Positions 1,838 to 38,765 of a stretch of 39,237 nt of DNA are shown here, in pieces. Source of the stretch: Irineochytrium annulatum (lineage: Eukaryota > Chytridiomycota > Chytridiomycetes > Chytridiales > Chytridiaceae); NCBI GenBank assembly GCA_027600665.1, contig JADGJL010000072.1:1-39237 (forward strand), written 5' to 3'. Position 1 is the first letter of the stretch. Each line of letters starts with the position of its first letter. The notes under the pieces were generated by a model. The model worked only from the letters and a program-made list of their open reading frames with translations. It did not search any database and was not told the origin of the DNA. The position numbers and the translations under genes were made by a program.

Positions 1838-4800
1838 CTAGACCTGCTCTTGCTTGCGCAACGATTGGAACTCGGGCACGGTCGACGTCGCCTTAACTTG
1901 AGACGCCATCGCGTCCCACTTGTTCTCGACGATTTTCTTCAGGACGTTCCCAAACTCGGCAGCGGACGACGAGCTCGTGAATTGAATGACGGCGGACCTG
2001 CCGGTTTCGTGCGTGATCGTTATTGTGGCGTCGGTGGTGGAGGGTGTGGCGCTGGCGCTGCTGGCAACGGAGGCCTCGCCCTTCGTGTGGCTCATCGACG
2101 AGCGGGTCCTGTCGCCTGCGCCCTTACCGGCGTTCAGCGTGAACTTGATGAGCGGAATCGTGATGGAGGCCGGGAAGGCCTTGGCATTATTTGTCTATGC
2201 AAAGAGATAGATAAATATTTAAGAAGGCTACGAGTGGAAAAGATGGCCTGCCAATTTTACCTTGCCGGGGACCTTCGGCTCAACGCCTATCAGGGTGAGG
2301 ACGCGCTGGTCTGGGATCAACACCGCCGTTTTCTGCTCCCAGAAATCAACGCCGAACTTTTTAACTTTGATGGCGCAGTCTGCGACAAGCGAAATCTAAA
2401 ATCAGGAAAAAAGCAGTCAGGTTAGACACGTAGGCGAGAAGCCGGGATTAGCAAAGTTATACCGATCGGTCCTTCGTCCAACTCGTGACCACGGACTGGA
2501 AGTCGCCATCGCCCATCAAAGGAGCCGAGTCCGTTCCCGTAACGGACTGATTACGCTTAGCGCCTGTCTCGTCCTCGCCCGATTGGTACCGCTGGTACAT
2601 GGACATGAACTTGACGCCGAGAAGGAACGTCCAGGCAGCGCCGGCGATGATCAGCACAGCGATGGATTTGATGGCGTAAATAGTGCTCAGATCGTTGCCT
2701 ATATTGTTTTTCAAATATCAGCATAAAACGCCTCTCAAGAGCGGAAACCAAGCAGCTGAAAATGGCTCTTACTTGGCAGGTACAAAATTGAGATGAAAAT
2801 AACCACACAGCCGCAGACGCAGGTGACGAAGTAGCCAATGTATTTGCTCTGTGGGTAGTGAATTAAATCATTATTGGTCGTTGGATAAATCGATTTTTTA
2901 ATTCCTACCTCACTGAAGAGCGCATAGACGTTACGTGTCATGTACGAGAAGCCCGAAAGGACACCGAGGAGCGCGATGTTGTACGCGAACAGGACGGCAG
3001 TGAAGATGAGCTGGGTGGTCGTGCTCTTGGAGGAGCAGCCCTCGAACACGAGCCCAACGGAGTTACCGCGCTGAATGACGGTAGGGACTGGGGGGTCCAC
3101 GATGGTCCAGACGATGAGGACGGCAGAGTTGAGAGCGACGGCGACGGCGGTGTATCTGTAAATGAGAGAGAGTGCGTGAGTGTTAGCACTTTATTCGGGC
3201 GAGGGGTGTCCGGCGTGTAACTCGTACCCAAAGAGCTCGCCGTTCGTGATCTTCATCTTCATCGCCTTCGGGTTCGAAAAAATCCTCATGATACGGAAAG
3301 TCTGTGAGCGGAGGAAAGGTTACCACCACAGCGCGTGCATCCCCTGACGCCGAAATGATTACCTTCGAAATCAAGGACCCAATGACGATCGAGAACGAGA
3401 TCGGGAACATCCAGATCTCTGCAATGCACGTGGCGTTCGACGGACGCAGGGAGTAAGGCACGACCGAGAAGCAGCCCATGATGATGCCGATGGCGATCAT
3501 CGTCATGAAGATCGGGCTGGAAGCCTTCACGACCGGGTTGGCGTGGTAGACGTACAAGCCGATGAGCGAGAGCAGCGTCACGATGGCGAGCACGAGCGCA
3601 GCCACGATGACACCCTTAGGCGAGCCCGTGATGGCCGAGGCGGTCACGGAGTCCTGGAGGGCCGCGCGGGATTCGGGGCTGGAGCCGGCGGAGTAACTAA
3701 TGTAGGACGGGATGAAGGCCTGGCCGCCGCAGACGGTCGCGTTGGCGGTGAGAGCGTAGCTCAGGCCCGTACAGGGCTGGCAGGAGGACTGACCGCTCTG
3801 AGGCTGGTAGGAGCCGAAGTCGACGATGGTGGACGTGCCGATCGTGACGACGGGGAGGGTGCCGTTAACCGGCGTGTTGAACATGACCTGGCTGCAGGCG
3901 TCGCAAGTCGTCTGGCCCTTGATGGATTGCGCCGTGCCGGTCGGGCAAGGCGTGCACGACGTCGGCCACCCGTAAGAATTCGTGTATGTCCCAATTGGGC
4001 AGGCGTGACACTTCTTGGCCGCAGGGTCGTGGAACGTTCCCGGGGCGCACTTACGAATAAGGTTGATGGTTGCCGTCTTAGAGTTCAGTAGGTAGTCGGT
4101 AACGTGATAGGTGAAGGAATCGTACGGGTTACCACCGCCATCGGCGCTGCCAAAGATCTTGACTGAAGGCTCGAAGAGCTCGCGGCGGATGTAGGAGCCG
4201 GGGGTAATCGGGGTGACGTACTGCATGTTCGACCGTCCCTGACGGAGATCACCGTCCTGACGACGGAAAGTGTAGTTCTTATCGTACATCATCGTCGCGT
4301 CCACGCTGGGGAACATGCCGTTAAAACAAATATTCGAGGTGTAAGGGGTAAACAATAACTAACGTCACCGTGTCAACAACGAATCGAAGCCACATGGTGT
4401 CGTCGTCGGGGTCTTGACCGACGGGATCCCACAGCGTGTAGTTGCTACCGTCCTCGAAGGTAAGGTCCGTCACGTGACCGCCAATCGGAACGCTTGAGCT
4501 GACGAGCGGACATGGGCTGACGCCGTCGTAGTCAGAGCAAATCGCATCGAAGTGGTGTGGCCCCATGTCCTTGAACAGGTACGAACCGTCCGCCTGGACC
4601 GTATGCGAGTCAAAGTTGTGGTACATGTAAAGACCCTTCTCAGTGCCGTTGAGCTTTGTATACATGGTGGCCCTGACGTCCTCGATGGTCCTGTTTGTGT
4701 CCCAGAGCCTAAACTCGTCCATGGCAATGTTTCCCTTGACCAAGAACTTTATGTAGCCGTCGGGCGTGCTCGGGTCGCCGGTGAAGGAGGCAAAGGGGCC

Positions 4801-6997
4801 CGCGGAGCCGCCCGATGTGGTCACGAGCTGCCCGTTGACGTACTCTCGGTTCGTCCCGCTCGCGGTGCCGTCACTGATGAGGCAGACGTGGGTCCAGAGA
4901 CCGAAGTAGCTCTGGGCAGGTGCCATATTCCTGCCGGCGCCGGAGTATTGCCATCCCTGTTAAAAAATACTATTAATGGCAGCGCAGGTACACATAAAGC
5001 GCAGATTGGCGTACGTAGTCAAATACAAAGGCGGCGTTGTCCTCGGCCGAAAAACGACCGTTCGCCTGCGCGGCAAAGTCGGGAGCGTTGAAGCCACGGG
5101 AGTCTGAAGCAGGTACGATCCACCATTCCCACGTGAGCGGCCTCGGGTCGTAGCTGCCGTTCTTCCACATAAAGCTCGGGATTCTTATCGGGTCGACCAC
5201 GACGGTATCCGGCACGTTCCTAGGCACGATGGCGCCTCCCGTGTCGCCGACGAGCGGGCGTGCGTTCTTGGTAATTGTGATAACAACATTGACAGTAATT
5301 GACGAATTGCCGGCCGTGATTAAGACGTTAAAGGACTGGACTGGCCATGAGGGTGTGGCGACGTTCGCGATGTGGGTAGCATAGATGACACTGTTAGAGC
5401 CGAGGGACTGGCCGGCAGCCGTGATGGCGCTGCCCGACATGCTGGTCGAGAGCTTTAGGATCTTTGGGTCGGGCAGGGACTGGAGGGTGTAAGTGGCGGC
5501 GGGCGTGCCGGACAGGAGGACGGACGACGCGTCGACGGAGCTAATGGTGTTGATTGAGATCGGGAGGACGGACGGATAGTCGCCGCTCTCCTTCATTTGG
5601 ACAGGGTACGAACTTAGGCGTAGGTTGACGACGGGGACAGAGAGAGGGCGGACGATGGGCATGTTGACCTGCCGGTTTAGCACGCCGCCGAGATAACCTG
5701 TGAGCCTCTTGTGAACGGAAAGGTCGTGGATCTCGCCGTTGGTGATGTTGTTGAAGTCTAGGTAGAGGAAAAGGTTGGTGTCCTGCATCTCGGTTGGGGT
5801 CAGCGTCCTGTACATCCTGCTGATTATCTCTAATCGCGAGAGCGGCTTTGTCCAAATCTGCACTGGCGGTAAATAAACCAATTGCGTGTCGCTAAAGCAT
5901 AAAGCATACCCTGAACTCCGCCAAGTCGCCGCAGTACGGAAAGATCGGCTGCAGCGTGTTAACCTGGACGGTGTTGGAAGCCCACTGTGTTCAAGCGGTG
6001 TCAGTTCAGCAGTTCAAGCGGATGAAAAACCTACATCACGAATTCCCAGGGACCAGACTGGAGTCACAGTGAAATTTGAAGCGCAATAAAGCGACGAGAC
6101 TGCGGTTCCGTTAAGGTAGACGGTGTTGTTATAGTTCTGGCTAACTACCGCAAAATGCTGTAAACGGGATCAGCGATGGGTGGCGATAGTAGAATGACCG
6201 GGTTATGCTCACCGTCCAGACGTCGACCTCGAGGATCATACCATCCGTGCGGCCGTTGTAAGGGTACTCTTTGATAGGGTTGAAAGGGACGGTGCCTCCA
6301 CAGAACGTAAACCAATTCCTTGAGTACGGTCAAAACAATTGCGGAGCATGAATGGGTGGCATCTACGCACCAGTACCAAACGAAGGAGTTGTCAGGCAGA
6401 GACGGCACCCAGGTTTGGTGAAAGTTGTGCTCCTGCGACATGGAGAACAAGTGGGGGTATTCCTGTGACCACGACTCGCGCGGGGACGCCATGTACCAGT
6501 ACTCGAGGGTGAAATCCGTCGACAGCTGCTGGATCGTGGCGTCGTCCGCACATTCGCCCTTGATGTGTACATAGTCGCCGGTAATGTAGTCTGCGTTCGT
6601 GAGCGGGGAGTAGTCCCACTGCCTGAACACAAGGCGTTAGAAAGCGGACTGTCATATGTGAAGACGCCAGGGAATTCGAAAGGTGCGATCAGCGAATTGG
6701 CAACGGATGATCCCGGCGGTCGTATATCATACCCCCCCAACCTCTATCATCCCACCACGCGTCTCCCCCGTCCGTGCGCGCTGAACCACGTCTTCTCTGA
6801 GGTGGTGCTCACCGGCCGCGGAAGCGAAGTCCGTTTCCATATCCACCTAATTGTCAAATGTGTTAGCATAAACGTTGAAAGGCCGCACGCAGGATGGTGG
6901 TAACGCGCCGCTCACCAGCTTGAAGTGCAGCTGCCGTCGTGCCAGCACTCAGGACGGCCGCCAGGACCGTCCACGTCTCCATCCACGTCTGGCGCAT
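1838..6997 (-). CDS. Class C (GABA-B-like) GPCR with two LamG-like domains and cysteine-rich stalk
   Basis: Fifteen exons join in phase to 1391 residues: 6997-6916, 6846-6813, 6622-6371, 6318-6213, 6157-6035, 5984-5910, 5857-5015, 4956-4364, 4305-3363, 3301-3228, 3155-2909, 2848-2773, 2698-2463, 2395-2261 and 2194-1838. Domain order is signal peptide (1-27), LamG/ConA-like domain (about 35-245, ending GDLAEFRIWTKPLSRLEI), cadherin-like strands (about 275-400), second LamG (about 430-660, with YVNGQL and MDEFRLWD), a cadherin-like repeat (DSFTYHVTD), and a cysteine-rich stalk with a CAPGTF..CHACPIGTY..CTPCPTGT pattern (about 789-896). A 7TM_3 domain (about 934-1175) and a 200-residue cytoplasmic tail follow. 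GABA-B-like marks are SLISKTFRIMRIF after TM3, SKSTTTQ before TM5 and TRNVYALFSESKYIG before TM6. Cysteines in NATCIAE and FEGCSSK fit the conserved TM3-ECL2 disulfide. There is no Venus-flytrap domain. It is probably a plasma-membrane sensor of a carbohydrate or surface ligand; the ligand is unknown. Confidence 0.88.
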
Positions 6998-8633: not shown

Positions 8634-9338
8634 TCACAAGCCCCGCTCCTTCACCTGCGGCTCCCACGCCTGCACCTTCGGCTTCACCGTGCTGTACGTC
8701 TTGAAAGCCGACGACGTCCCCGTGAGGAGCTCCTGGTATGGCGGCGTGTAGGCAGGGATAGGCACTGTCGTCTCGTTAGGAACGTCGTCCGTGATCCGGT
8801 GGAGCCATTGGTGCCACTCTGGCGGCACCTGCGTCGGGTCGTAGTTCCATCGCTTGTACATTACCCACCGGTCGCGGACTGAGAATAATTGGCTTCATCG
8901 TTAATGATACTGCGAGTCAACAAGCAAAATTCGACGATTCCGCACGCACCGACAATATCGTCCCTATTCTCGTAGTACTCGTTACCGAACTGGTCCTTGC
9001 CGACCAGCTTGCCGACTCGCGGCTGGTCCCTGCAAGCAATTCCGTCAATCAATCACCCCAAAAGCCAGACACGGCAAACGACAGCCCGCCACCGCCACCA
9101 TCCATCCGAAAGATCGCGGACCGAGACAGAGACGACCGTGAAGGAACTCACATGATGGCATACTGCTTGAAGGTATTCTTGAGGCCGTGCGCTCGGATCG
9201 CCTTGAGCTGGAATCGTTCAAACGTCAGCGCACTGATCGGGGGGAGACACCATCAAGATCCCATTCCCCGTCCACCCGGCCGAGAAGATCCCATCTCCTC
9301 ACCGTGTTTATAGCGATATTGCTCCAGGTGGTGGTCAT
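8634..9338 (-). CDS. NADH:ubiquinone oxidoreductase subunit NDUFA12 (B17.2 family)
   Basis: Four exons (9338-9303, 9207-9152, 9029-8950, 8878-8634) join in phase to 138 residues, close to the family's usual length of about 145. Family marks are the N-terminal AIRAHGLKNTFKQY, then VGKDQFGNEYYEN, RDRWVMYKRWNYD and the hallmark VPPEWHQWLHRITDD, with a proline-rich end. NDUFA12 is an accessory subunit of mitochondrial respiratory complex I, on the matrix side at the junction of the peripheral and membrane arms; a paralogue (NDUFAF2) acts in assembly. The full-length C terminus points to the structural subunit. The start is the first ATG and lies only 53 bases from the start of the divergent FHA-protein gene, so the two probably share a promoter. 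Confidence 0.93.
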
Positions 9339-10770: not shown

Positions 10771-12450
10771 TTACCTTTCAATTGCCTCCCTGTCGGCCAC
10801 CTGAACGGCGCCCGCCTCCTTCGCCTTCTGAATCTTCTGCAGTTCCATCTCGATCTGCTTCAGCCTTGCCTTTTCATCGGCGTCCGTCACCAGCACCGGC
10901 CCACTGAACTCGATGCGCTGGCCCATGATGGTTTCGACATCTTTTCAAACCAGCATTAAATTATGTCAGGGGTTGGCGAAATAAACTCACCCCTCTCATC
11001 CATCCCATCCTCGGACGCTTCCTCCGCCGCCAACGCCGGCGTCGAAATCCCGGACCCGTTGGGCGTCCACGCGTTAGCCATCCCGCCCCAGAGGCCTCGG
11101 CTCCCCAACCCGGCCAGCTTCCGGTCAATGTCCGCCAACCTGCCCAGCTCCTCGTCGCAGCCAGCCAGTATGCTCGTGCCAGCGCTGATGGACCCGAATC
11201 GGGTGCCGAGGGTCGACCGGCCTGAGCTCGCGGGCGGCGCGCTCCCGCCGTTCTCGGAGGTGTCGCCGTATTCGCTGCCGGCCGCCGCGGGGACGAGCAT
11301 GGGGAGTGTGCCGGGTGGCAGGAGAGTGGTGAAGTCGTCGGGCTCGTTGGTGGAGTCGAGGTTGTCGTCGTCGCGGAGGAGATTCTCGACGCGCCGGCGC
11401 TCGTCCTCTGTCATGGCATCGAAGTAGCGGGCGTCCGGACCGAGCTTTTTTTTCTCTCATGTCAGAAAATCGGCGTCGCAAGGCAAGGTGTACTAACGGC
11501 GATATTCCGCTGTATGAAATTCCCCCTCTGATAGGCACCACCCGTCTGCCTGCTCTTCATGCTCTCGGCCGTCTCGGCCACCCCCATCACCCTTCGCGCC
11601 AGCGTCGAGTGCCCGTCGCTCGCCTTCCGGGGCAGATGGACCTTGTTGCGATTCCACGCAGGCTCGGTGATGAAGGTTCGTTCCTTGACGGCGCTGCCGA
11701 CGCTACGGAGCTCCACCTCGCTCCCGAACTCGCTGGCGCTGTCGTCGCCCGTGTCCGCCGTTGTGGCGGTGGCGGTGCGCTCGTGGCTCATGGCGGTGGG
11801 TTGGCGGGAGGATTGGAGGGATTGGACGATCTGAAGCCGCATAGAATATGAGATCATGCAGGCGCAGCATGCAAGCGCTAATAATCTCACGGCATTCTTT
11901 TCCTTGATAACAGCGTCTAGCTTTTGGATCGTGGCGAAACCCGCCATGATCTTCTGCCTCATCTCGTCCGTGAGCCCGTCCCTTGGCATCTCGGTCTCAG
12001 ACGAGGCCCTCGTGCCTCCTTCCAGCTCATTCGAGATCACGGTGGAGTTCCCCGTCGACACGGCGTCCCGCATCCGCCGGAGGTTCACGTCGAGCTCTTC
12101 CTGTTGTACGAAGATCAGATCCCAAATCGAGAATAAAATGTCCAAACCCGCGCATTCTCCCAGCGATCCTGCCGCTGAAGAATGTCCTTTACAAGCGACT
12201 CGATCCGCGAGTCTGACCATTCCTCGGCAGGCTCTGCGGACTGTGCGAGTTCTGGTTCTGCGAGCAATATCAGCCGCCGCCATACAAGTCGAAGGAGAAG
12301 GAACTCACGATCTGGCGGCAGTAACGTCAGACCGCCCTGCGCGGCCTCCTCCGAAAGCCGGACGGTCCGCTGGGGGACTGGGATGTTGTTCCCTCGCTCC
12401 ATCTCTCTTGTGGTCAAATTACCTTTCACTTGCTCAAGCCGTGTCCCCAT
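10771..12450 (-). CDS. FSIP1-like (fibrous sheath-interacting protein 1) coiled-coil protein
   Basis: Six exons (12450-12309, 12257-12148, 12100-11891, 11830-11498, 11444-10991, 10940-10771) join in phase to 472 residues. The protein is mostly polar, with helical segments at about 85-115 (EEWSDSRIESLVKDIL), 116-145, and 160-185 (MRQKIMAGFATIQKLDAVIKEK). The telling stretch spans the fourth splice junction: NFIQRNIALGPDARYFDAMTEDERRRVENLL. It resembles the part of FSIP1 in which a DF(V/I)xRN segment is followed by a MTEEEKxRLxxLL helix. A second helix pair, CDEELGRLADIDRKL, and the basic helix at the C terminus also fit. FSIP1 is known from sperm tails and ciliated organisms, so a role at the flagellum is inferred. 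The assignment rests on remembered motifs and is moderate. The gene is head to head with the exonuclease gene, 83 bases apart. Confidence 0.6.
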
Positions 12451-12533
12451 GCTCAGCCGTAAAGCTACTGTGGCCGATCAGCAGCCGACTTCCTAGACTT
12501 CCTGACTCTATTGTGGTCAATCTGGATCTCGCA
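12451..12533. promoter_or_regulatory. 83-bp bidirectional promoter between the FSIP1-like and ERI1-like genes
   Basis: The divergent start codons at 12450 (minus) and 12534 (plus) leave 83 bases for both promoters. The stretch includes ATTGTGG at 12509, close to an inverted CCAAT box but not exact. No TATA box is evident. Confidence 0.5.
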
Positions 12534-13571
12534 ATGTTCTCCTACCTCGCCGTCCTCGACTTCGAGGCCTCCTGCATCCGGACCGGGCCTGCGCGATCCT
12601 ATGAGCTCGTCGAGTTCCCGACGCTCCTCGTCAGCACCAAGAGCGGCTCCGTCGAGGCCGAGTTCCACGTCTTTGTCCAGCCTAAGCGGCACCTCCCGAT
12701 CTCGGACCACTACCTGCGCAAGAAGAACATCGACCGGACCATGCTGGAATCATCGCCAACTTTCCCGGACGCCCTGGAGTCCCACTCCCGGTTCCTGGAT
12801 GCGCACGGCTGCACGTCCGAGAACACGCTGTTCGTCCTCTGCGGCGACTGGGATCTTAAGCACCTCCTGCCCGTTGAGCTGGAGATGCACGGGCTCGCAA
12901 GGGACGCCGCGCCGCGGATGCTGAGCTGGTGCAATATTAAGGCGGCGTTCAAGGAGATGACCGGGAAGGACGCGAGGGGGATGGTGCGGATGCTGAACTT
13001 GATCGGGGAGACGCTGGACGGGACGCACCACTCCGGCATCGACGACTGCCGGAACATCGCGAAGGTCGCGAGGTGGATGTTGAGTAAAGGGTGGGAGCCG
13101 AGGGCTACGTGGGTTGATGACCCTGTGGCCGTGGAGAAGGCGAGAGCGGGGAGAGAGCGGATGATGAATGGGGAGGATGATAAGGACGACGAGGAATTAC
13201 CGGCACGGGCGGTGGAACAGGTCAGCGAGGAGCTGTCACAGGCGCGGGCGGAGGTGGAGCGCGCTAAAGCCGTTCTGCGAAAGCGGCTGGAGGAGCTGAG
13301 CGACACGCGACTTTTGAACGCGATCGCGTGCCCCGTCTGCGTTACAGCTAATCGGAAGGGCGTATTCAAAAGAGAGAAGGCGGCCACGGTTGCGGAAGTG
13401 GAATTAGCGTGGCCGCGTGCGATTTGCCAGAACAAGAAGTGCAAGCTCGGGCCACGCTCATTGCTGGATGTCCTGCGGCTGTCGGACTCGTTCAAGGCGG
13501 CTGCGGAGGATGTCGAGAGACTCGAAGCCGTTTTGGAAATGGCAATCCAGCGGTTGGATGCGATGACGTGA
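12534..13571 (+). CDS. ERI1-like DEDDh 3'-5' exonuclease with a C-terminal cysteine module
   Basis: A single 345-residue open frame, unusual here for having no intron. ExoI is LAVLDFEAS, with catalytic Asp9 and Glu11; ExoII is VLCGDWDLKHLL (Asp105/Asp107); ExoIII is HHSGIDDCRNIAKV (His165/166 and Asp170/171). This layout, with the ELVEFPTLLVS and AEFHVFVQPKRHLPISDHY blocks, matches the ERI1/3'hExo/ERI2 family. Members trim histone mRNA 3' ends, 5.8S rRNA and small RNAs, or act on other structured RNA. After about residue 195 there is an acidic coiled coil, then a segment with CPVC (about 267) and CQNKKC (about 300) that could bind zinc. The start is the ATG five codons before the first conserved block; an upstream extension would run into the divergent gene. 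Confidence 0.9.
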   Translation: MFSYLAVLDFEASCIRTGPARSYELVEFPTLLVSTKSGSVEAEFHVFVQPKRHLPISDHYLRKKNIDRTMLESSPTFPDALESHSRFLDAHGCTSENTLFVLCGDWDLKHLLPVELEMHGLARDAAPRMLSWCNIKAAFKEMTGKDARGMVRMLNLIGETLDGTHHSGIDDCRNIAKVARWMLSKGWEPRATWVDDPVAVEKARAGRERMMNGEDDKDDEELPARAVEQVSEELSQARAEVERAKAVLRKRLEELSDTRLLNAIACPVCVTANRKGVFKREKAATVAEVELAWPRAICQNKKCKLGPRSLLDVLRLSDSFKAAAEDVERLEAVLEMAIQRLDAMT

Positions 13572-20812: not shown

Positions 20813-22088
20813 ATGATGACAGCACGGACGATGGCTATGATGGCCGCCGGCCTCGCCGCCGCGGGCCTGGTGACGGCGATGCCCCAGGACCCGGCCTTCC
20901 TCCCGCCCACGAACCCCGACGCCTCCGGTTCCTCCTCAAACGACACCGGCCCTTCCTTCGTTCCCTTCACTCCCGTCTTCGAGCAATTCTACCCGTCCGG
21001 CCAGCAGCCCGTCTTCGTCCCCGACACGCCCCAGGCGCCGAACCCGGCCTTCGTCGGCGGCAGCGGCGGCCAGACGGATGCGGGGACGTATGCGTCGTCA
21101 GGGCCCTCCGCCACGTCATCGGGTGGTCTGGCTTCCACTGCCATCCCTCCCGCGGGCACAGGCGGCGCTGCTGGCAACAAGACGGGGACCGGATCGCCCA
21201 CGTCTCCGACGGCGACACCCGCTCCGGCGCCGTCGATGACGTACCCGGGCGGCCTGTCGCAATGCCAGTACATGCAGATCCTGAAGATGACGTCCGTGTT
21301 CGAGACGGGGAGCACGAAGTTCAACTGGGGAGCTTGCGGGAACAACAACGACGGGCATGGGTTGTCTGGTAAGGATTGTTTCTTCTTCTGTTACCTTGCA
21401 TCGTCCTCACCGATATTTCTCTGCAGTTGGCGTCGTCCAGTTCACGACATCCACCAGTGTTTACGACCTCGTCGTCGAGTACGACAGACTGTCCGGCGGC
21501 TCCTCTAAGCTCACCCAGTACCTCGGCGCTCTGAAGGCCTCCAAGTCTAAAGGCCCTCAAGGTAGCTCCGGCCAGGGCGTCATGGACGGCCTCTGGTCCT
21601 TCTGTAGCGACTTCGGCAAGCTCGGATCGGACCCAAACTTCCAGCAGGCCCAGCTGAACCTTCAAAACAAGCTCTACTTCCAACCGGCAGCCGATGCGGC
21701 GGCCAAGCACGGCATCACGGCGCCGCTGTTTTTGGGTCAAGCGTACGACACGGCCATCCAGCTGGGCGTTGGCGTGGTTGGGCAGTTGGCGCAGAACGCC
21801 GGCGGGAAGTCGGGCGATCAGGCGGCTTACATGAGCGCTTACCTCTGGGCGAGGAACGACATGCTTAACAACTGGGGTGGGGCGTACCCGGGCACGAAGT
21901 ACAGGACGAACGCGTGAGTTCGATAATTTGTTGCTTTCCTTTTATCTTTTGGATTGCGATTGGGGATGCTAACGGAACTCTTCGGCCGCAGATACCGGCA
22001 CTGCCTCGACAACGGGGGCCTGATGTTGGCAGGGACCGTGGAGATTTTGGACAATGGAGGCTACAAGACCATTTCCATTGGATGCTGA
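20813..22088 (+). CDS. Secreted GH46-family chitosanase
   Basis: Exons 20813-21368, 21427-21913 and 21992-22088 join in phase to 379 residues. Residues 1-22 form a signal peptide (hydrophobic AMMAAGLAAAGLVTA). A Ser/Pro/Gly/Thr-rich linker of about 120 residues follows, then the catalytic domain. The match to GH46 is clear in order and spacing: MTSVFETG with the presumed acid Glu164, NNNDGHGLSVGVVQFTT with the presumed base-side Asp180, then FQQAQLNLQNKLYFQPA and LGQAYDTAIQLG. GH46 enzymes hydrolyse chitosan, endo-acting with inversion, and are best known from bacteria. The gene has three in-phase introns-exon junctions and local base composition, so it is settled in this genome. Likely targets are the fungus's own deacetylated wall or the walls of other fungi. 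An AATAAA-like polyadenylation signal lies at 22300. Confidence 0.9.
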
Positions 22089-27469: not shown

Positions 27470-28126
27470 CTAATGGAATTGTTTCATTTTATTCCAATCT
27501 TCTTCGATCATTGAGTACATATCGCAGTCTATGAGTTCCTCAACTCCGGGTTTGCTGTAGTAATTCCTCAAGGTACCCTCAAAATGGAAGCCAAGTTTTT
27601 CAAGGACGCGACCGGAGGCTATAAATGAAAGCAGATCAACTATACCGAAAGGCTCAGGATGTAAAAATGACTTCGTACTCTTGTTGAATGCGAATATCCC
27701 GGCCTCGACTCGGCGCACGCCCAAGGACTCAAACGCGATGCCGCAAACGGCGTTGACGGCCTTCGGCATGATCCCCTTTCCTCTCCACTCGGACGACAGG
27801 TAGTAGGCAATCTTCATGACGTGGTCGAACGACTTGGTCGTCGTCAGTGGGGCGAGGTTGATGTTGCCGATGAGGTTCGAGTCGGCGTCCCGGATGCACC
27901 AGTACCGCGATGGCCTACCCGTCGCGGCGGCCTCTCGGAGGTGCTGCTGGACGCGGCCGATGAACGAGTCGGCGTCGGATGCCGAGTAGGGGTTGGGCAT
28001 GAACATGTGTTTTTGGATGCCTTGATCCTGGAGGATCTCGACAAGGCGGGCGCTGTCGGTGGGCTGCAGGTGGGAGAGGCGGACCCCGAGGGCCTCATCG
28101 AGGACGATATCATCAGGCATTGTCAT
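27470..28126 (-). CDS. GNAT family N-acetyltransferase (RimJ/RimL type)
   Basis: Exons 28126-27679 and 27618-27470 give 198 residues, the usual size. The protein opens with LGVRLSHLQPTDSARLVEIL and has YWCIRDADSNLIGNINL (strands 2-4). AYYLSSEWRGKGIMPKAV carries the acetyl-CoA-binding Q/RxxGxG/A loop as WRGKG. VRRVEAGIFAFN follows, then, after splicing, NKTSGRVLEKLGFHFEGTLRNYY, the RimJ-type end. The 60-nt intron is a multiple of three with no stop, so the unspliced reading also stays open and inserts 20 residues in front of the SGRVLEKLGF helix. The spliced form restores the family consensus N-x-x-S-x-RVLEKLGF. Such enzymes acetylate protein N termini or small amines; the substrate is unknown. 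Confidence 0.88.
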   Translation of the reverse strand: MTMPDDIVLDEALGVRLSHLQPTDSARLVEILQDQGIQKHMFMPNPYSASDADSFIGRVQQHLREAAATGRPSRYWCIRDADSNLIGNINLAPLTTTKSFDHVMKIAYYLSSEWRGKGIMPKAVNAVCGIAFESLGVRRVEAGIFAFNKSTKSFLHPEPFGIVDLLSFIASGRVLEKLGFHFEGTLRNYYSKPGVEELIDCDMYSMIEEDWNKMKQFH

Positions 28127-29186
28127 GGCTGTGGATGGGGAGGGAGGACAGGAGAGTCTCAAAGAAAGGACTCGAATGACGTGGTCACAATCCCCCCAGC
28201 AAGACGTCTACTTTGTCTAGAGACATGCTTGAGCCAGATCACTTGGTCGCTCACTACTTCTTTGCCTCCTGCGACGACAGCGCGGTATGCAGAAATCGGG
28301 GATATTGCAAGGATGTGAGGGACAATGGAATAAGAAAAAGCAGGTTGGAAAATAGAAGATCAAGCAATCGCCAGTCTGCCTCCTCGTTCTAATACTACAG
28401 ATACGGAAGATCAAGTTAAGGTGCGCGCCATCGAAAAGTGTCCGCTGCCCCGAACGCCCGCTTTCAGCACGCCCGCTGTGAAATCGCGCGCGAGGAGGAG
28501 TGGCGCACCGCCAGGGAGGCGCGTCTCAGGATGCGAAGAGCCAGGGCCTTCGTCGTGAGCCGGCCTAGGGCTTCGGGTGCAAGTCAATAATTTATGGGGC
28601 CAGTCCGCTGACGGTGGGTGATGGAACTGCCGGAAAGGATTATTAGTGCAACAGGACGGCGTGTGAGCATGGAGACCTACTTGGCGCAATATCTTTGAAG
28701 CAATACAAAATACGCGTCGAGCGCGAATGGACATCGTTTGGGTACATAGGGAATGCGCCGTCATACCAAAACGATAACTCAAATTGAGGAACACAAAGCA
28801 TGGAAGGAATATATCGCGGGTGTATATATTGAAAGTATAAGTGAGTTTACAGGGGTAGCGATGAAAAAAAAAAACGAGAGCGGTATGCGAAGATACAAGA
28901 TATTGCAAAATATAAGGGCAGAAAGGAAGAAGGCCTGAAAAACGAGAGGAGTCGGGCGAGTGTTATGAAAAGAAAAGATCTAGTAGGAAAGTAAAAGCAT
29001 AGCAATACCGCGAGTTCCACTCCGTTGTCCCCAATCCAACAGATGTGGAAGATCAAGCAATAAACAGTCCCATCTCCCTTTTGCCAACACCCCCCATGCC
29101 GATATCCACTGTGTATATCACAGTCGGGGCTTGACCCGCTAGCCCGTCTCTGGGATGTCTAAAGCGAATGGTCGAGGCAGCGATCT
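28127..29186. other. Intergenic region with a diverged duplicated segment
   Basis: About 1 kb without a supportable gene. Two AG-rich segments, about 28277-28410 and 28885-29056, share short ordered matches and may be an old duplication (separate entry). Between them, 28420-28570 is GC-rich with open frames on both strands but no recognisable product. Confidence 0.4.
28277..29056. repeat. Diverged direct repeat pair (about 28277-28410 and 28885-29056)
   Basis: Both copies contain, in the same order, a GCGGTATGC motif, GATATTGCAA, an AG-rich purine stretch and a closing GGAAGATCAAG (28405 and 29046). A GAAGATCAAGCAAT also occurs inside the first copy near 28357. Spacing between the shared motifs differs, so the alignment has gaps. 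It could be a decayed duplication of a 3' UTR-like sequence; the evidence is modest. Confidence 0.3.
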
Positions 29187-30799: not shown

Positions 30800-32149
30800 A
30801 TGATTACGAACCAGGAGGCGGACTGGCTGGGGATTGTTGCGAGAGTCTCGGGCTCGATAGGCATGCTGGGGGCCGTGTCAGTCCTTTGTGTGAGTTCGGG
30901 TTCGGCCTTGAACGACACGAAAAGCCCTCCCTCCTCGTGCAAATGTTAATAGTCAACAAAAGTTTATTCTTAGCGACAAGCGAGAGCTGTCCAAGGCGGT
31001 CAGCCGGCTGGTCTTCGCAATCGCCATCTCAGATGTCCTCGAAGGAAGTGAGTTTGTTGGGTACTTTACCCGCGCGGGACTGATACATTGATTTCTACCC
31101 TTACATAGTAAAAGCAATTATTGCACGGGCAGGTCCAACGGCAGGTGCTCAGTCCGTGATTTGCCAGGTGCAAGCTGTCATCGTCGAAACCACGGGCCTC
31201 ATGGACTGCTTCTACTGTGGGATCATGTCGTTTTTTATCTTGCGCTTGGTTTTCTCAAAGACGCGGCACATGGACGCGGTAAGTGTTACGCTCTACACAA
31301 CTTTTAATCTGAAGTTCTTGAAATACTTACCGTTGTTCTCACAACCAGATGTTTAAGACGGAGATTTTGGCCATATGCGTGGCAACGGTAATTGCGGTCC
31401 TCGCCGGGATCATTCCGGCGCTGGTCACTCCTAATATTTACGGAACCGGGTCGGTGTGGTGCTGGATCGCGACGAACTACGGCATGTGGCAAATCTTGCT
31501 GCTGTACGCGCCTGTATGGAGCATGTGGATCTTCAACTTCGTCGCCTACGCCGTCACGACCAAGAAGCTGACGGAGACGACCCGGGTCCTCAGGCCGAAC
31601 GCCAGCAACAATAACGCCTCTGCGTCAGCCCTGCCTTCCCCATCCTCGGTCGCCCACAGCCAGAACCAGACCAAGCTGCCTGTGGGCGGGGAGCAAGCGA
31701 CCAGTTATTTGAGACCGAACACCCTGGCGTCCTCGAACGTCGGCAGTCAAGACCAGCCGGGGTTGTCAGCGGATATCGAGCCAGCAATTAGCCTCTTGAA
31801 AGTGATATCCATAAAGGGCAGTCATAGCGACGATGGGTCGGCGGCAGCGGCTAAAGTGCTGATGCGGATGAAGTTCTACGTCCTCGCATTCCTAATCTCA
31901 TGGCTCCCGGGTATGTCACGTTTCAGTCCGCGATTTGATGCAATGTCAGTATACTGAAAAACCGATTTTGCCTAAGGCTCCATCAATAGGATGTACACCT
32001 TGGCCACGGGAGACCCTGATTTCTATCTCAACCTTGCGCATGTCACCGTGCACCCGCTGCGCGGGATGTACAACTGTGTTGCGTATATCATGAATTTGTA
32101 CTATCAGCGAGGATCCTGGGGAGAGGTGTGGAGACCGACGCGGGCATGA
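30800..32149 (+). CDS. cAMP-receptor-like (class E, Dicty_CAR/GPR157-like) 7TM receptor
   Basis: Exons 30800-30889, 30981-31047, 31109-31278, 31349-31910 and 31977-32149 join in phase to 353 residues. The N terminus is only eight residues before TM1 (WLGIVARVSGSIGMLGAVSVL). Then come RELSKAVSRLVFAIAISDVLEG (TM2) and AQSVICQVQAVIVETTGLMDCFYCGIMSFFILRLVF with the conserved TM3 Cys-x-x-Gln. TM4 is followed by TGSVWCWIATNYGMWQ, the WCWI extracellular loop typical of this class. TM5, a 90-residue Ser/Asn-rich third loop, MKFYVLAFLISWLPGSINRMY (TM6) and HPLRGMYNCVAYIMN (TM7) complete it. The first intron is the weak point: phase requires an AAG acceptor at 30980 rather than the TAG at 30973. Relatives are G-protein-coupled receptors; in Dictyostelium some bind cAMP. 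The ligand here is unknown. Confidence 0.83.
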
Positions 32150-32571
32150 TTTGTCGAGCCTTTTGTTCGAGTTGGGGAATACAGATAGATGTACATACCT
32201 TATTTGAATCAAAAGTATATTCCTCGGATGATTACAGCAGGGTGTTTTGAAAGGAAGGCAGAGCAGCCTTTCTTCTGAAAGGGGAGAAACTGGGTGATTC
32301 ACGAACCTGTTTTGAAAGATGAATTGGCAGGATAAAAGGAGTGCCCATGCGGGTAAGCCCGGGCTTGATTACGTAAAGATGACTCTGCCTGTGAGATTTC
32401 GGGAAATTGGCCCGATTACCAGACGCCCGCTCATTGGACGATAACGAGGACGCCCGCTCATTGGTCGCTTCGATCAGTTTTTTCGTTTCCATCAACCGGG
32501 CGCTCCCCCCCATCCCCCCAAGTTCTCAACTCGACCGAGTCATCCTCGTCATCCCGAACACCTACACGACC
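32150..32571. other. Promoter region of the GATA factor
   Basis: About 420 bases. The left part is the GPCR 3' UTR. A 16-bp direct repeat containing inverted CCAAT boxes lies at 32422-32464 (separate entry), and another ATTGG is at 32406. A pyrimidine-rich leader (32500-32550) precedes the GATA start codon. Confidence 0.5.
32422..32464 (+). promoter_or_regulatory. Direct repeat of a 16-bp element with an inverted CCAAT box
   Basis: GACGCCCGCTCATTGG occurs at 32422-32437 and again, identical, at 32449-32464, with start points 27 bases apart. ATTGG is the complement of CCAAT, the site of the HAP/NF-Y complex. The pair lies 108-150 bases before the GATA start codon, a normal promoter distance. 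It could be a regulatory duplication. Confidence 0.6.
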
Positions 32572-33696
32572 ATGTCCTTCGCCGACTTCGCGCTGTTCGC
32601 TGACCTCCCGCCGTCGCCGACATCCGACATGCCCCTTGACCTCGGCCTACCACAGGTGTCGACCCCCACCGCGGCTGAGCTCGGCCTCCTGCTCTTCCAG
32701 CTCGAATCCGCGGCCGCGGGGACAGGACCGAACGGCCTCGCCGGCCCGGACAACGACCTCGGATCCTTCTTCGACCTCGGCTCGGACCCGTTCGCGTCCT
32801 ACTCGACAACCGCCAGCATCGACACCGCCTCCTACCTCGACCACGCGACGCCCTCCGGCCCGTCTTCTCCCCCCGCATCCTCCTGCGCGTCCCCCTCCTC
32901 GCCCCGAGACGACGATCACGCATCTCACGATCACGCCCAGCCGCAAGAAAACGCCACCTGCGCCGTCCCCCCACCAGCCCCCCAACGAGCCACCGCGACT
33001 GCCGCCGCCAAGCGACCGCGCGACTCCACGCCCCGCCATTTGATCTGCCACAACTGCGGCGCGACCTCCACCCCTCTCTGGCGCCGGACGCCCGACCGCC
33101 GACACAGTCTCTGCAACGCATGCGGGCTCTACTACAAGCAGTACCAATGCCACCGCCCCGCCAACATCAGGCCCAAGGTCCTGACCGGGCTCACGGCGAG
33201 CGACGGGAGCGCGGCGACGACGCGCGGTGAGGGCGGCGTTGGCAAGGTCAGGAGGCCGCGCGTGCAGGCGAACTCGACGCTCGCGCGGCGGGCCGCGGCG
33301 CAGCAGGCCGAGATGATCCAGATGCAGCAGCAACAACAGCAGCAGATGCAGTACGCGCCACAAGCGATCGCCCCCGGGCAACAGATGCAGCACGTCCAGA
33401 CCTGCGCGCCGACCGCCATCGCGCCCTCACCGTCCTCGGCGGCGCCCTCCTCCCCGCCCCTCTCCCCTCCCCTCGCGCCGGGCGGCGTCAAGGTCGAGTC
33501 CGACGAGGGCCCCATCGCGATCGTCACGAACGCGTGCCAGTTCGACGCGGCCTTCAACCCCGTCAACATGGGCGAGGCGGAGGCGATGGAGTGGATGAGG
33601 GTGCTGGAGAGCAAGCTTGGCTCGCTGAGGGCCATTGTGAACGGTGCAGGGGGTGCGGGCGGTCGTGGTTGTGCAGGGGATCAAATGATGGCGTAG
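32572..33696 (+). CDS. GATA-type zinc-finger transcription factor
   Basis: An intronless frame of 374 residues. The start at 32572 ([16 protein letters not shown]) is chosen as the first ATG and gives an acidic/hydrophobic N terminus of activator type. A single GATA finger lies at about 157-200: [14 protein letters not shown] with Cys159 and Cys162, an 18-residue loop, then CNACGLYYK with Cys181 and Cys184, and the basic [13 protein letters not shown] tail. The 18-residue loop is the spacing seen in many fungal and plant GATA factors. The C-terminal half has a basic segment, a Gln-rich run (about 250-262), Pro/Ser-rich sequence and Gly repeats. It should bind WGATAR-type sites in the nucleus. 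One finger only; candidate roles include nitrogen, light or iron regulation, not decidable here. Confidence 0.92.
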
Positions 33697-34391: not shown

Positions 34392-36675
34392 TCACGGGCT
34401 TGTTTCGTCGGGTGGGATATAAAATTCTCCCCTCAAAACCTTAAAGTAACTGCATAGAAGGTTAATGGGAGAAAGGCGGACGGACAAATTATGACCGGAA
34501 AACAAAGAAAAGGAGAGGATAAGCAAGAAGTAAACAGCTGCGAAGAATAAAAAAAATAGTACTCACTTGCAATCTAAGTTGACGCCCGCTAGCATTCGGT
34601 CCTCCATCTCCATCCTGCTGCCCTCAGGGTCCCGACAAACATCACACCTCTCCCCTCTGGGACACATCTCGTCCCTCTTCTCCTCCGTCAGCGCGCCAAC
34701 GTTCTCCTGGAAATGCTTGACGATCGTGATGTGCCTGCACTGCGACAGCTCCTCGCAGTAGTCGACCATGGCCTTGAGGTTTGCAACCTGGGGCCGGTCC
34801 TTGAGGTAGGCTCGCCTCTCCGCGATGCTGCCGAAGCCCTGATTATTCTCGTACGCCTCCTGGCACATGTCCTTGGCGATCAGATAGGACAGATGATCGC
34901 GGTCGATGTGCGAGTAGTATAGGAGGCACTTGCTCGGGCGGCCGTCGCGGCCGGCACGGCCGGTCTGTGTAGGTATGGAGGAAAGGGGAGATGCATGCGT
35001 CAGACGACGACGAGAGTTTAAGCCCGAAAAAAAGAAGAAGAATCAACCCACGAACAAACCTGTTGGTAGTACGCCTCCAGAGACTGGGGCATATCGTAAT
35101 GAATTACAAACCGAACTGATTCACACAAAGAAGTCAGCGAGGGAAGGCGTTTGAAAACCATAAGCTCACCGTCGTTCTTATCGATGCCCATCCCGAACGC
35201 CACGGTCGCAACGACGATATCGATCGAACCGGGTTCAATCGCCTTCTTCGCCGCCTTGCTGTTGCCCTCCTCCTTTGCTGCCGTCGCCTTGCTCTCCTGC
35301 CCCGACTTGACAACCTCTGCCGGCTGGACGAAGGCCTTCACTCCTGACCAGCCCTCAAGGACGGCGTCCCGGGCCTCCTGCTCCATACCAGCGTGGTACG
35401 CCGTCGCCCGAAGGCCATGCATGGCCAACTCGGCCGCGAGTCCCTCGCAAGTACCCTTCGCCCTGCAGTAGCTGTACGCGGAAAGAATAACGGACGGGGG
35501 CGATCAGATTCTGCGTGTGCGAAAGGGTGCGTGGGGGCTTCCTTTCCCACCGACCCCCCCAAAGCAAAACAATCATCTCACACAATGCCGCTGGTTCTCG
35601 CCGGCCACTTCCGGATGAACGCGAGCATGTCGTCGAACGCGTAGTTCTTCGAGTCCTTCATCCGGACGATGTATTCGAGTTCGGGCCTGTTGTAGCCCCC
35701 CTCAAACACCTCGCACCTCTCATCCCTCGCAGCCCCCGCCGCGCCCCCGCGCATCCCGAGCTGCGTGATGATGTCCTCCTTCACCTGAGGCCTCGCCGTC
35801 GCGGTCAGCGCCATGATGGGGACGCCCTCCAGCTGGTCCCGCACCCAACGGAGCCTCCGATAATCCTTCCTGAACTCATGACCCCACTCGGAGATGCAGT
35901 GGGCCTCGTCGACGACGAACCGGGCCAGGAGCTTGCGCGAGTGCAGGCTGCGGAGGAGCGAGCGGAACCTGTCCGTCGCCATCATCTCCGGCGTCACGTA
36001 CAGGAGCCGGGTTTGCGGGGGAGTGGACGGTGACCGGCCGTCGCTGGGGGCGAGGTCGTTGAGGAGGGCTCGGCGCTCGCTGTCGGGCTGGGTGGAGTTC
36101 AGGGAGGCGGCGCGGATGTTCCAAGAGTTGAGGAGGTCGATTTGGTTTTTCTGATAAATACCGTGTCATCAGTAGCAGCGCCTCAAATGTCAATGGCTAA
36201 GGCGATGATAATGGGGACTCACAATCAAGGCTGAGGAATTAGCTTGATTAATTGATACACAGCTGTAACGACCAAGTCAGAAGTTACGCACCCAGGAGAG
36301 GTGAAACGACGATCGTGACCCCATTGTCGATGACGGCTGGTAGCTGGAAACTTCAACCGTCTTCAATGCCAAGAACAGTAGTGCAGCGTCGACAGTCGCT
36401 CACGTCAACGATTTCCCGCCGCCCCTGGAATCCATCATTCAGTATAAGGCCTGTATACTGTATGCAGCGGACGAAGAGTACTTACGTTGGCATCAGCACC
36501 ATGGTATCCTTTTCTGAACGTTTTGGGAGAAAGAAGTTGAACATAAGCCCGCTGAAGGGAGGCCCTAACTTTTCAGCGCCGATATCACGGCGGCCTCCTG
36601 GTTGCCGCGGAAGTTCGGTATGCGGAAGGTGTTTTTCAGCACGTGCAGCATCGTCGTGAGCGTCGACGTCCCCAT
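34392..36675 (-). CDS. RecQ family DNA helicase, ten exons including three microexons
   Basis: Exons 36675-36570, 36513-36486, 36424-36404, 36350-36292, 36230-36223, 36150-35582, 35471-35170, 35115-35060, 34964-34567 and 34449-34392 join in phase to 534 residues. All helicase motifs are present: motif 0 (FRIPNFRGNQEAAV), I (MPTGGGKS, Lys49), Ia (VVSPLLALI), II (DEAH, 155-158), III (ALTATA), IV (GIVYCRAKGTCEGLA), V (ATVAFGMGIDK) and VI (QQTGRAGRDGR). The RecQ zinc-binding region follows (DYCEELSQCRH, then CPRGERCDVC). An insertion of about 35 Lys/Glu/Ala-rich residues sits between motifs IV and V. The protein ends soon after the zinc region, so a winged-helix RQC domain and HRDC are not visible. 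It is an ATP-driven 3'-5' helicase in genome maintenance, nuclear, nearer RECQ1-size proteins than Sgs1/BLM. An in-frame TGA just before the first ATG supports the start unless an upstream exon exists. Confidence 0.88.
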
Positions 36676-37278: not shown

Positions 37279-38765
37279 TCATCTCTCCTCCAAAGGCTTA
37301 ACCTTCCCAAATGTCCACAACATCAGCAAGTCGTAAACGATTGTGACTCCTCCGCAGATGACAAATGCCCAGTCAAAGAGGCCACGCTCGGCCAAGAAGC
37401 CGGTCACAAGCGGGCCGAAAGCGGAGCCAACGGTCCGGACGATGTTCGTGACGCCAAAAACGGCCGTCCGCTCATGGGCGGGGACGATGGAGGCAATGTA
37501 TGCGGTGCGGGGTACGCCGTCCATCTGTTCTCGTCACATTAGTATCAAGAGAAAAGAGGCGGATATGCGAATACGAACCTGCGAGATCGAGAACCGCAGG
37601 AAGAGCAACCCCGTCGCCGAGAACAGGTCCGGCATGAACGGCACCATGATCATCAGCATGTTCGCCGGCAGATGCGAGAACACCATCGTGTTGATGAGCC
37701 CGAACCTCCCCGAGATCGATCCGGACACCAACGCCGAGATCCCCGCGAGCAGGTTAGCGACGAACAGGAGGGAGCCCAGGTACGCCTCGTCGACGCCAAA
37801 CTTGCCGTGGAACCAGTAGGCGAGCAGCGAGGCCGACAGCATCCCCGCGCCGAATCCGTCTAATGCGAGGAGACAGCAGAGGCGAAAGACGATCGCGCGG
37901 GACGCATCGCTCAGCTCCAGCGCGCCTGCCTTCTTCACCGTCCCGTCGTCGAGCAGCGGTGCAAGCTCCCCCGCGGCCGCCTCATCCACCTCGGCCACGC
38001 ACTGGGCCGCATGTGGCGCACCGTCCTCGTGCGCCTCCACGTCATTACCCAGGCACAGGAAGCACACGAGGAGGAGCGCCGCGATGGCGCCGTAGGATGC
38101 GACGACGAGGCGGTAGGCGTCGACGTGCGGGATGTGGCGGACGTCGACGAGGTACGCGAGGGCGCGGCCGGCAAGGAGGGACCCGACGGCGGTCGAGAGC
38201 GAGGCCGTGAGATTGTACCACGCGAATGCGGAGGCGCGGTGGGCGAAGGGGATGAACTGGGAGATGACGGATTGCTCGAGGGCCGGAAATGGGCCCACTA
38301 GTAAACGAACAACTGTTGTTAGATAGTGTATATAAAAAAGCCAAGCAGATTACAGAATTAAACGAACGAACCTTCATACCCCGACGGCGAGATCACACCC
38401 AGCACGCCCAACGCCGTCATGCACACCAGCCCCAACCATCCGCCGACGCCCCAGCCATCCCCCGCGCCCTCCGGCAAGCATGCGAACCCAAAACCGGCAA
38501 CCATCATGCCCGACGCCCCCATGACCAACATCCGCTTCCTCCCGACCCTGTCGGCCATCGCCGTGACGGCCAGGCTCGCGAGGGCTGTGCCGAGAAGCGT
38601 CACGGTCAGGAACAGGCCCAGCGCCGTGTCGGAGAGGCCCAGGCGCTTCACGTAGAGCACCAGGACGATTCCGATGGCGCCGTAGGAGAGGAGCCGGAGC
38701 GCCCGGGTGAGGAAAAGGAGGCGGCACGACGCCGGCAGCCGGAGAACGGGGGCGAGCCCGAGCAT
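37279..38765 (-). CDS. Major facilitator superfamily transporter
   Basis: Exons 38765-38372, 38297-37579 and 37524-37279 join in phase to 452 residues, a normal MFS length. About twelve membrane segments can be counted, six before and six after a central acidic loop (around 230-260). The loop between TM2 and TM3 has the MFS signature in the form ADRVGRKRMLVMG. The N terminus runs RALRLLSYGAIGIVLVLYVKRLGLSDT; the last exon has MDGVPRTAYIASIVPAHERTAVFG, reminiscent of drug:proton and related antiporters, where a Pro-Arg-x-Ala/Glu motif is common. The substrate is not predictable. It probably sits in the plasma or vacuolar membrane. Confidence 0.9.

Follow-up and report, generated by a model that had tools for sequence, protein, structure and literature searches.

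Class C G-protein-coupled receptors (GPCRs) are enriched in the Chytridiomycota and Blastocladiomycota (PMC12842992), and the counts given by Krishnan et al. (2012, PMC3251606) are 78 for Allomyces, 14 for Spizellomyces and 3 for Batrachochytrium, with most of the fungal receptors carrying the ANF_receptor (Venus-flytrap) domain, ANF for short. Those of Rhizopus cluster with animal GABA receptors (PMC5705715), and the class C receptors of gut fungi have no ANF and bear other, carbohydrate-related domains (Seppala et al. 2016, PMC5168858). Choanoflagellates and further close relatives of animals have been described as bearing Ephrin_rec_like on their class C receptors, with a greater ectodomain diversity in filastereans and holomycotans (eLife RP107467, 2025, PMC12716839). 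The gene considered here lies on the minus strand of a 39,237-nt stretch of the chytrid Irineochytrium annulatum (assembly GCA_027600665.1, contig JADGJL010000072.1, positions 1 to 39,237), referred to below as the window, and is predicted to encode a class C GPCR in which two LamG/concanavalin A (ConA)-like domains and a cysteine-rich stalk precede the seven-transmembrane (7TM) domain.

The gene and its exons are positioned as follows:

1838..6997, minus strand: whole receptor gene, 15 exons, 1,391 amino acids, its 14 exon joins compared with relatives
6997-6916, 6846-6813, 6622-6371, 6318-6213, 6157-6035, 5984-5910, 5857-5015, 4956-4364, minus strand: exons 1-8
4305-3363, 3301-3228, 3155-2909, 2848-2773, 2698-2463, 2395-2261, 2194-1838, minus strand: exons 9-15

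The coding sequence of 4,176 nt is in phase across the exons and ends in a single stop, giving a product of 1,391 residues, and all 14 introns, of 50-190 nt each, are of the GT..AG type. Twelve of the 14 exon joins are gap-free within three residues in every relative that covers them (9 to 16 rows) and join 7 is gap-free in 15 of 17, whereas join 14, at residue 1273 in the tail, is gap-free in none of 11 relatives and is the least certain of the joins because the sequence around it varies in length. The preliminary description of this DNA had read the 15 in-phase exons as a working gene, and these features bear that out; as judged from its sequence, the gene is real and intact.

The part of the product that defines its class is the following:

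2607..3611, minus strand: 7TM domain, residues 935-1180, spanning introns, with a 7tm_3 match, seven hydropathy peaks and the conserved cysteines of transmembrane helix 3 (TM3) and extracellular loop 2 (ECL2)

In Pfam scans of the spliced protein at E<=1, with the ectodomain regions also scanned singly, 7tm_3 is matched at residues 935-1174 with 139.4 bits against a cut-off of 33.5 (E 2.1e-40), and hydropathy analysis at a threshold of 1.4 gives seven separate peaks within residues 935-1180. The TM3 cysteine, placed like that of ECL2 by alignment to solved receptors, is kept in 14 of 14 rows and the ECL2 cysteine in 12 of 12 covering rows, and the class C features retained in the domain comprise, besides this TM3-ECL2 pair, a conserved stretch of TM3 and intracellular loop 2 (ICL2) and a motif in intracellular loop 3 (ICL3). 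By sequence the receptor is thus a class C (Glutamate, 7tm_3) GPCR, as had been proposed from the start, and its 7TM domain is 43-59% identical to those of relatives outside I. annulatum. The accompanying proposal that the domain lies close to the GABA-B branch is not supported, since the family profile scores nearly equally with GABA-B2 (74.6 bits) and mGlu2 (72.5 bits). The 7TM domain of one relative scores 65.4 bits with mGlu2 and 43.1 bits with GABA-B2. In a 7TM tree (16 rows, seven of them on long branches, with L004 left out), the receptor family forms one clade with a support of 100/99, and its grouping with GABA-B2 (p-AU 0.357), with mGlu (0.373) or with P0025, a chytrid protein described below (0.122), is in no case rejected.

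From the ectodomain to the tail, the order of parts is LamG, middle region, LamG, a conserved region, a stalk with ten cysteines, a variable linker, the 7TM domain and a conserved tail:

6923..6997, minus strand: candidate signal peptide, residues 1-25, picked out by eye only and lying under the hydropathy threshold of 1.4
5825..6537, minus strand: LamG1, residues 68-235, spanning introns; Laminin_G_3 at 38.3 bits when scanned alone (cut-off 27.6)
5237..5794, minus strand: middle region, residues 246-431, conserved in the family and without a credible Pfam match
4675..5155, minus strand: LamG2, residues 459-599, spanning one intron; Laminin_G_3 at 30.9 bits when scanned alone (cut-off 27.6)
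4050..4509, minus strand: possible immunoglobulin (Ig)/cadherin-like region, residues 655-788, well conserved
3729..4049, minus strand: cysteine-rich stalk, residues 789-895; Ephrin_rec_like at 49.3 bits when scanned alone, ten invariant cysteines
1904..2471, minus strand: cytosolic tail, residues 1226-1370, possibly pleckstrin homology (PH)-like, with PH matched in one of nine tails and a profile score that exceeds those of all 30 shuffles

Laminin_G_3 is matched in the whole protein with 53.5 bits (cut-off 27.6, E 3.8e-14) in two stretches. The hidden Markov models thus place it within both of the segments, residues 35-245 and 430-660, for which LamG/ConA-like modules had been predicted, each above the cut-off. 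Consistent with that, the PDB chains matched by the family profile of LamG2 are ConA-like, namely 4dqa (E 0.00025), pappalysin-1 (E of about 0.0005), an S-layer domain protein (0.0012) and a pentraxin (0.0068). A PDB search with the receptor ectodomain alone returned only TNFRSF9 at E 0.036 or worse, and an NCBIfam scan of four relatives gave no match. The cadherin-like strands that had been suggested between the two modules are not confirmed by Pfam, as the sole match at residues 251-442 is an implausible one to TAT_ubiq (E 0.0079) and the sole match for residues 654-789 scanned alone is Big_9 at E 0.16, which reaches E 0.034 in one of 11 relatives. Residues 661-785 are nevertheless 52-60% identical to 14 relatives, and 72% and 92% identical to two I. 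annulatum proteins. The predicted lack of a Venus-flytrap domain agrees with the scan of the whole protein, which gives no ANF_receptor match at E<=1, and the same scan gives no match to 7tm_2 or GAIN/GPS. The ectodomain further contains a weak hydropathy peak at residues 402-420, read as a strand, and 12 N-glycosylation sequons lie upstream of residue 930.

The ephrin-receptor/TNFR-like cysteine-rich module expected upstream of TM1 is likewise present: Ephrin_rec_like is matched in the whole protein with 37 bits (cut-off 23.1, E 2.8e-9) in three stretches, and of the ten invariant cysteine columns of the stalk seven hold cysteine in 16 of 16 rows and three in 15 of 15 covering rows. NCD3G, scored on the stalk alone, stays below its cut-off of 38.9 at 21.1 bits (E 0.00029), and is matched in one of 11 whole proteins at E 0.0081. 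The linker from the last stalk cysteine to TM1 has a length of 39-86 residues across all 15 rows and is only 0-24% identical outside I. annulatum at residues 906-930; because it is long and variable, a rigid coupling in the manner of the flytrap receptors is less likely. GCC2_GCC3 is the old name of PF07699. The presence of GCC2_GCC3 in the class C family is recorded in the available text of PMC3251606. Two other contigs of the genome, C274 (L027) and C997 (L028), carry ANF together with Ephrin_rec_like and further hydrophobic frames that appear multi-pass by eye, with no 7tm_3 match, and are possibly another type of receptor with the same stalk.

The conserved tail of the family is possibly PH-like, a suggestion drawn from sequence profiles. 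Pfam matches PH in one of nine family tails (E 0.00057) and at E<=1 not in that of the receptor itself, and the whole protein P0008 scores 15.3 bits against PH, under the cut-off of 25.1. Compared profile to profile, the tail scores 24.1 with PH against a maximum of 13.4 in 30 column shuffles, the weak sides of this comparison being a probability of 13.7%, a span of 31 columns and a global score of 10.7; the comparison set consisted of six of 15 PH matches, nine having been taken in and three of these dropped because they contained stops. The tail of P0025 scores 12.5 with the PH profile, within the range of the shuffles, and a PDB sequence search with the tail returned no PH chain, the best match being PCNA at E 0.22.

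A whole-length protein search gave 15 proteins at E<=1e-3, 13 of them family members, and a profile search gave 19 proteins with four new members, two of which are partial and one short with LamG only; as scoring in both cases was confined to the 8,000 candidates with the most words in common, the resulting count of at least 17 database proteins is a lower bound. Sixteen of them have a named organism, in every case a chytrid, and the five taxa checked for classification all belong to the Chytridiomycetes. The members come from I. annulatum (2), Phlyctochytrium bullatum (3), P. planicorne (1), Dinochytrium kinnereticum (3), Chytridiales sp. JEL 0842 (2), Blyttiomyces sp. JEL0837 (4), Chytridium lagenaria (1, LamG only) and a JGI source (1), so that seven named chytrid species carry the family, two of these being represented by fewer domains or a single protein. 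The search that had been proposed for the same domain order in other chytrids was successful: 11 of the 17 proteins were taken into the domain scan, and each of the 11 gave a match at E<=0.1 to 7tm_3, to Laminin_G_3 and to Ephrin_rec_like, which argues that the gene and its domains are not a product of chance. In P0011 the Ephrin_rec_like match falls under its cut-off, and a large part of the exon 4 stretch is missing from P0001, P0005 and P0016. P0003 and P0010 of Phlyctochytrium bullatum have extra N-terminal domains, the receptor being joined to a glycosyltransferase or an F-box protein (the database name of P0003 is dolichyl-phosphate beta-glucosyltransferase), and are probably annotation fusions.

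Searched alone, the 7TM part gives 15 proteins at E<=1e-6, which are 12 family members and three others. P0025, from Chytridiales sp. JEL 0842, has two LamG stretches, a weak TNFR-like match and 7tm_3, with no Ephrin_rec_like match in Pfam. Its ectodomain is about 23-25% identical to several members over roughly 700-790 residues (434 residues with the I. annulatum receptor) and its 7TM domain only about 23-29% identical to the family. Since P0025 shares the plan of LamG with 7tm_3 and aligns with the family ectodomains, this plan extends beyond the receptor family.

Within I. annulatum, contig C743 carries a paralogue that is 60% identical to the receptor over 1,276 aligned residues. The database protein P0002 (HK101_010102) matches C743 at 100% in four of eight pieces and at 81-91% in three, which appear to run through introns, the remaining piece being a chance one. 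P0001 (HK101_002811), which is 89% identical to the receptor, lies on a contig of 6,246 bases and, with a best genome match of 94%, may be an allele or a recent paralogue.

We consider it slightly better than an even chance that this class C GPCR, whose family has so far been found in chytrids only, uses its two LamG/ConA-like domains to detect a ligand bound to a surface, a glycan or glycoprotein being the most likely one. In such a mechanism the LamG pair would bind an extended ligand, be it the cell's own wall, a food particle, a host surface or another cell, and the binding would cluster or pull the stalks and alter the packing of the 7TM dimer, instead of the closure of a flytrap. The 7TM domain would then activate a heterotrimeric G protein, and the possibly PH-like tail might keep either the receptor itself or a partner close to the inner membrane. 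We infer the ligand, the clustering, the coupling to a G protein and any role in zoospores from features that speak for this reading, namely the gene and its domains, their conservation in the family, the retained class C features, the ConA-like PDB matches, the long linker and the G-alpha matches, which lie above cut-off on four contigs of the genome. A lectin-type class C GPCR, in which the LamG pair, on a tether that is flexible and rich in cysteine, reads polysaccharide or glycoprotein surfaces and signals by clustering or tension while a PH-like domain in the cytosol couples its activation to membrane lipids, is a possible but doubtful elaboration; if it were true, sensing in the manner of the adhesion GPCRs would have been reached independently on a class C scaffold and kept across chytrids.

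The divergence of the copies bears on sensing of a surface ligand in both directions. Between the receptor and P0001, differences occupy 45 of 386 LamG positions as against 25 of 606 elsewhere (Fisher p 1.1e-5, with positions treated as independent), and the contrast of the LamG domains with the middle region (7 of 195, p 0.001) lends this reading weak support. On a recount the faster change in LamG is upheld relative to the middle region and to the 7TM domain. Several points weigh on the other side. The LamG rate against P0001, itself partial and perhaps an allele or paralogue, is not different from that of the Ig-like region and stalk (18 of 245, p 0.1). When P0002, the paralogue, is compared instead, the LamG domains are not faster than the middle region (p 0.71) or the tail (p 0.22), so that LamG is not clearly the fastest part and the contrast comes largely from the conserved 7TM domain. 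Some LamG folds have proteins or lipids as their ligands, or serve as spacers. The linker may fold, and a short stretch adjoining TM1 recurs by eye. It has to be noted that the comparison with P0001, which covers residues 1-1071, is uneven, with no difference among the 166 positions at 906-1071 or the 80 at 281-360, and this unevenness could reflect gene conversion or constraint.

An alternative, which we regard as unlikely, is that the protein is a receptor for a diffusible ligand in the manner of mGlu and GABA-B, with the LamG domains as scaffolding and the ligand held in the 7TM domain or the middle region. The well-conserved 7TM domain, at the identities to outside relatives given above, and the conserved middle region without a known domain speak for it, while the missing ANF match and the variable linker of 39-86 residues upstream of TM1 speak against it. 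Less likely again is a protein for adhesion or mechanosensing, whose 7TM domain serves chiefly as an anchor for the LamG domains and signals little through G proteins: its long modular ectodomain with lectin-like folds and 12 sequons is reminiscent of the adhesion GPCRs, but the retention of the TM3-ECL2 cysteines, the conserved TM3/ICL2 stretch and the ICL3 motif, together with the G-alpha genes in the genome and the lack of a 7tm_2 or GAIN/GPS match at E<=1, speaks against a mere anchor. That two genes, one for a secreted LamG protein and one for a GPCR, had been joined by error could be entertained because the exons were joined from sequence alone and join 14 lacks support from relatives; this two-gene or artefact model was rejected on the exon structure and on the relatives, and is very improbable, given that exon 9 by itself is one open frame (residues 703-1017) running from the stalk into the 7TM domain and that full-length relatives in several species are annotated as a single protein from LamG to 7TM across the same joins, in keeping with the single gene originally drawn. 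A decaying or non-functional copy, for which no point in favour was found, is hardly credible in view of the lack of an internal stop, the 14 GT-AG introns and the complete identity with P0001 at residues 906-1071.

In the genome as a whole, 7tm_3 is matched 32 times on 17 contigs, and because eight of these also carry ANF_receptor the receptor coexists with ordinary flytrap class C receptors. LamG accompanies 7tm_3 on two contigs, C743 and C788, the match on C788 being a single exon under the cut-off, and a scan of the genome contigs for relatives with a pair of peptide patterns matched 32 stretches, none of which was confirmed. Contigs C1, C2, C99, C126 and others hold 33 SBP_bac_1 matches in long stop-free frames, with LamG frames on C2, which suggests that bacterial contigs are mixed into the assembly. 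Around the receptor gene, ten chosen frames of the window were scanned with Pfam, and no tRNA genes were found in its 39,237 nt:

31322-31954, plus strand: part of a second, unrelated GPCR (Dicty_CAR, 22.8 bits, cut-off 21)
21291-21914, plus strand: open frame of glycosyl hydrolase family 46 (58.8 bits), a family that holds chitosanases
8637-8894, minus strand: NDUFA12, an ordinary neighbour
11835-13568, plus strand: exonuclease, an ordinary neighbour
27473-28207, minus strand: GNAT, an ordinary neighbour
32395-33693, plus strand: GATA zinc finger, an ordinary neighbour
35581-36165, minus strand: DEAD helicase, an ordinary neighbour
37537-38349, minus strand: MFS, an ordinary neighbour

To our knowledge, the way in which chytrid spores recognize food, partners or hosts is poorly understood, and a lectin-fronted class C family would provide named, testable candidates for it. 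The family also illustrates the extent to which non-animal lineages can fit the transmembrane scaffold of class C with new equipment, and sharpens the question of how a class C receptor switches without a flytrap. Among described systems, mGlu and CaSR share with the chytrid receptor 7tm_3 and a cysteine-rich stalk upstream of TM1, but have ANF and NCD3G, of which the former is not matched here and the latter is sub-threshold. Adhesion GPCRs with LamG resemble it in carrying that domain inside a modular ectodomain. They use 7tm_2, however, usually with GAIN/GPS, and the chytrid receptor matches neither.

Closest in outline are the receptors of the anaerobic gut fungi (PMC5168858), which are likewise of class C, with a long ectodomain, no ANF and a putative carbohydrate-binding front end; these differ in bearing pectin-lyase folds, beta-helix repeats, EGF or type II solute-binding domains, and the main text of that paper uses neither "laminin" nor "concanavalin". 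A class C receptor of Capsaspora with a Pentaxin domain (PMC3251606) has a ConA-like (pentraxin) fold in common with the LamG domains, although most fungal members in the same study have ANF and its available text gives no description of LamG domains in a paired order. The class C GPCRs of Rhizopus, candidate receptors for trisporic acid, also come from an early-diverging fungus (PMC5705715); that paper, in the text available, names no laminin, and in contrast to its clustering with GABA receptors the chytrid 7TM domain fits the GABA-B2 and mGlu groupings about equally. PMC12716839 names LamG, in its available text, for adhesion GPCRs only.

A full-text literature search for Laminin_G_3 with 7tm_3 returned no paper, although an earlier listing in a figure or supplement is possible, and LamG on a class C receptor is not named in the titles and the opening parts of abstracts from the literature searches. 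The remark that no description of the architecture was known holds for the LamG domains on a class C receptor, within the literature searched, and gives way for the rest, as non-flytrap front ends, including Ephrin_rec_like, have been published for non-animal class C receptors. The chytrid receptor is thus in line with the recognized tendency of fungal receptors of this class to carry unusual front ends, to which the pairing with LamG adds a new variation.

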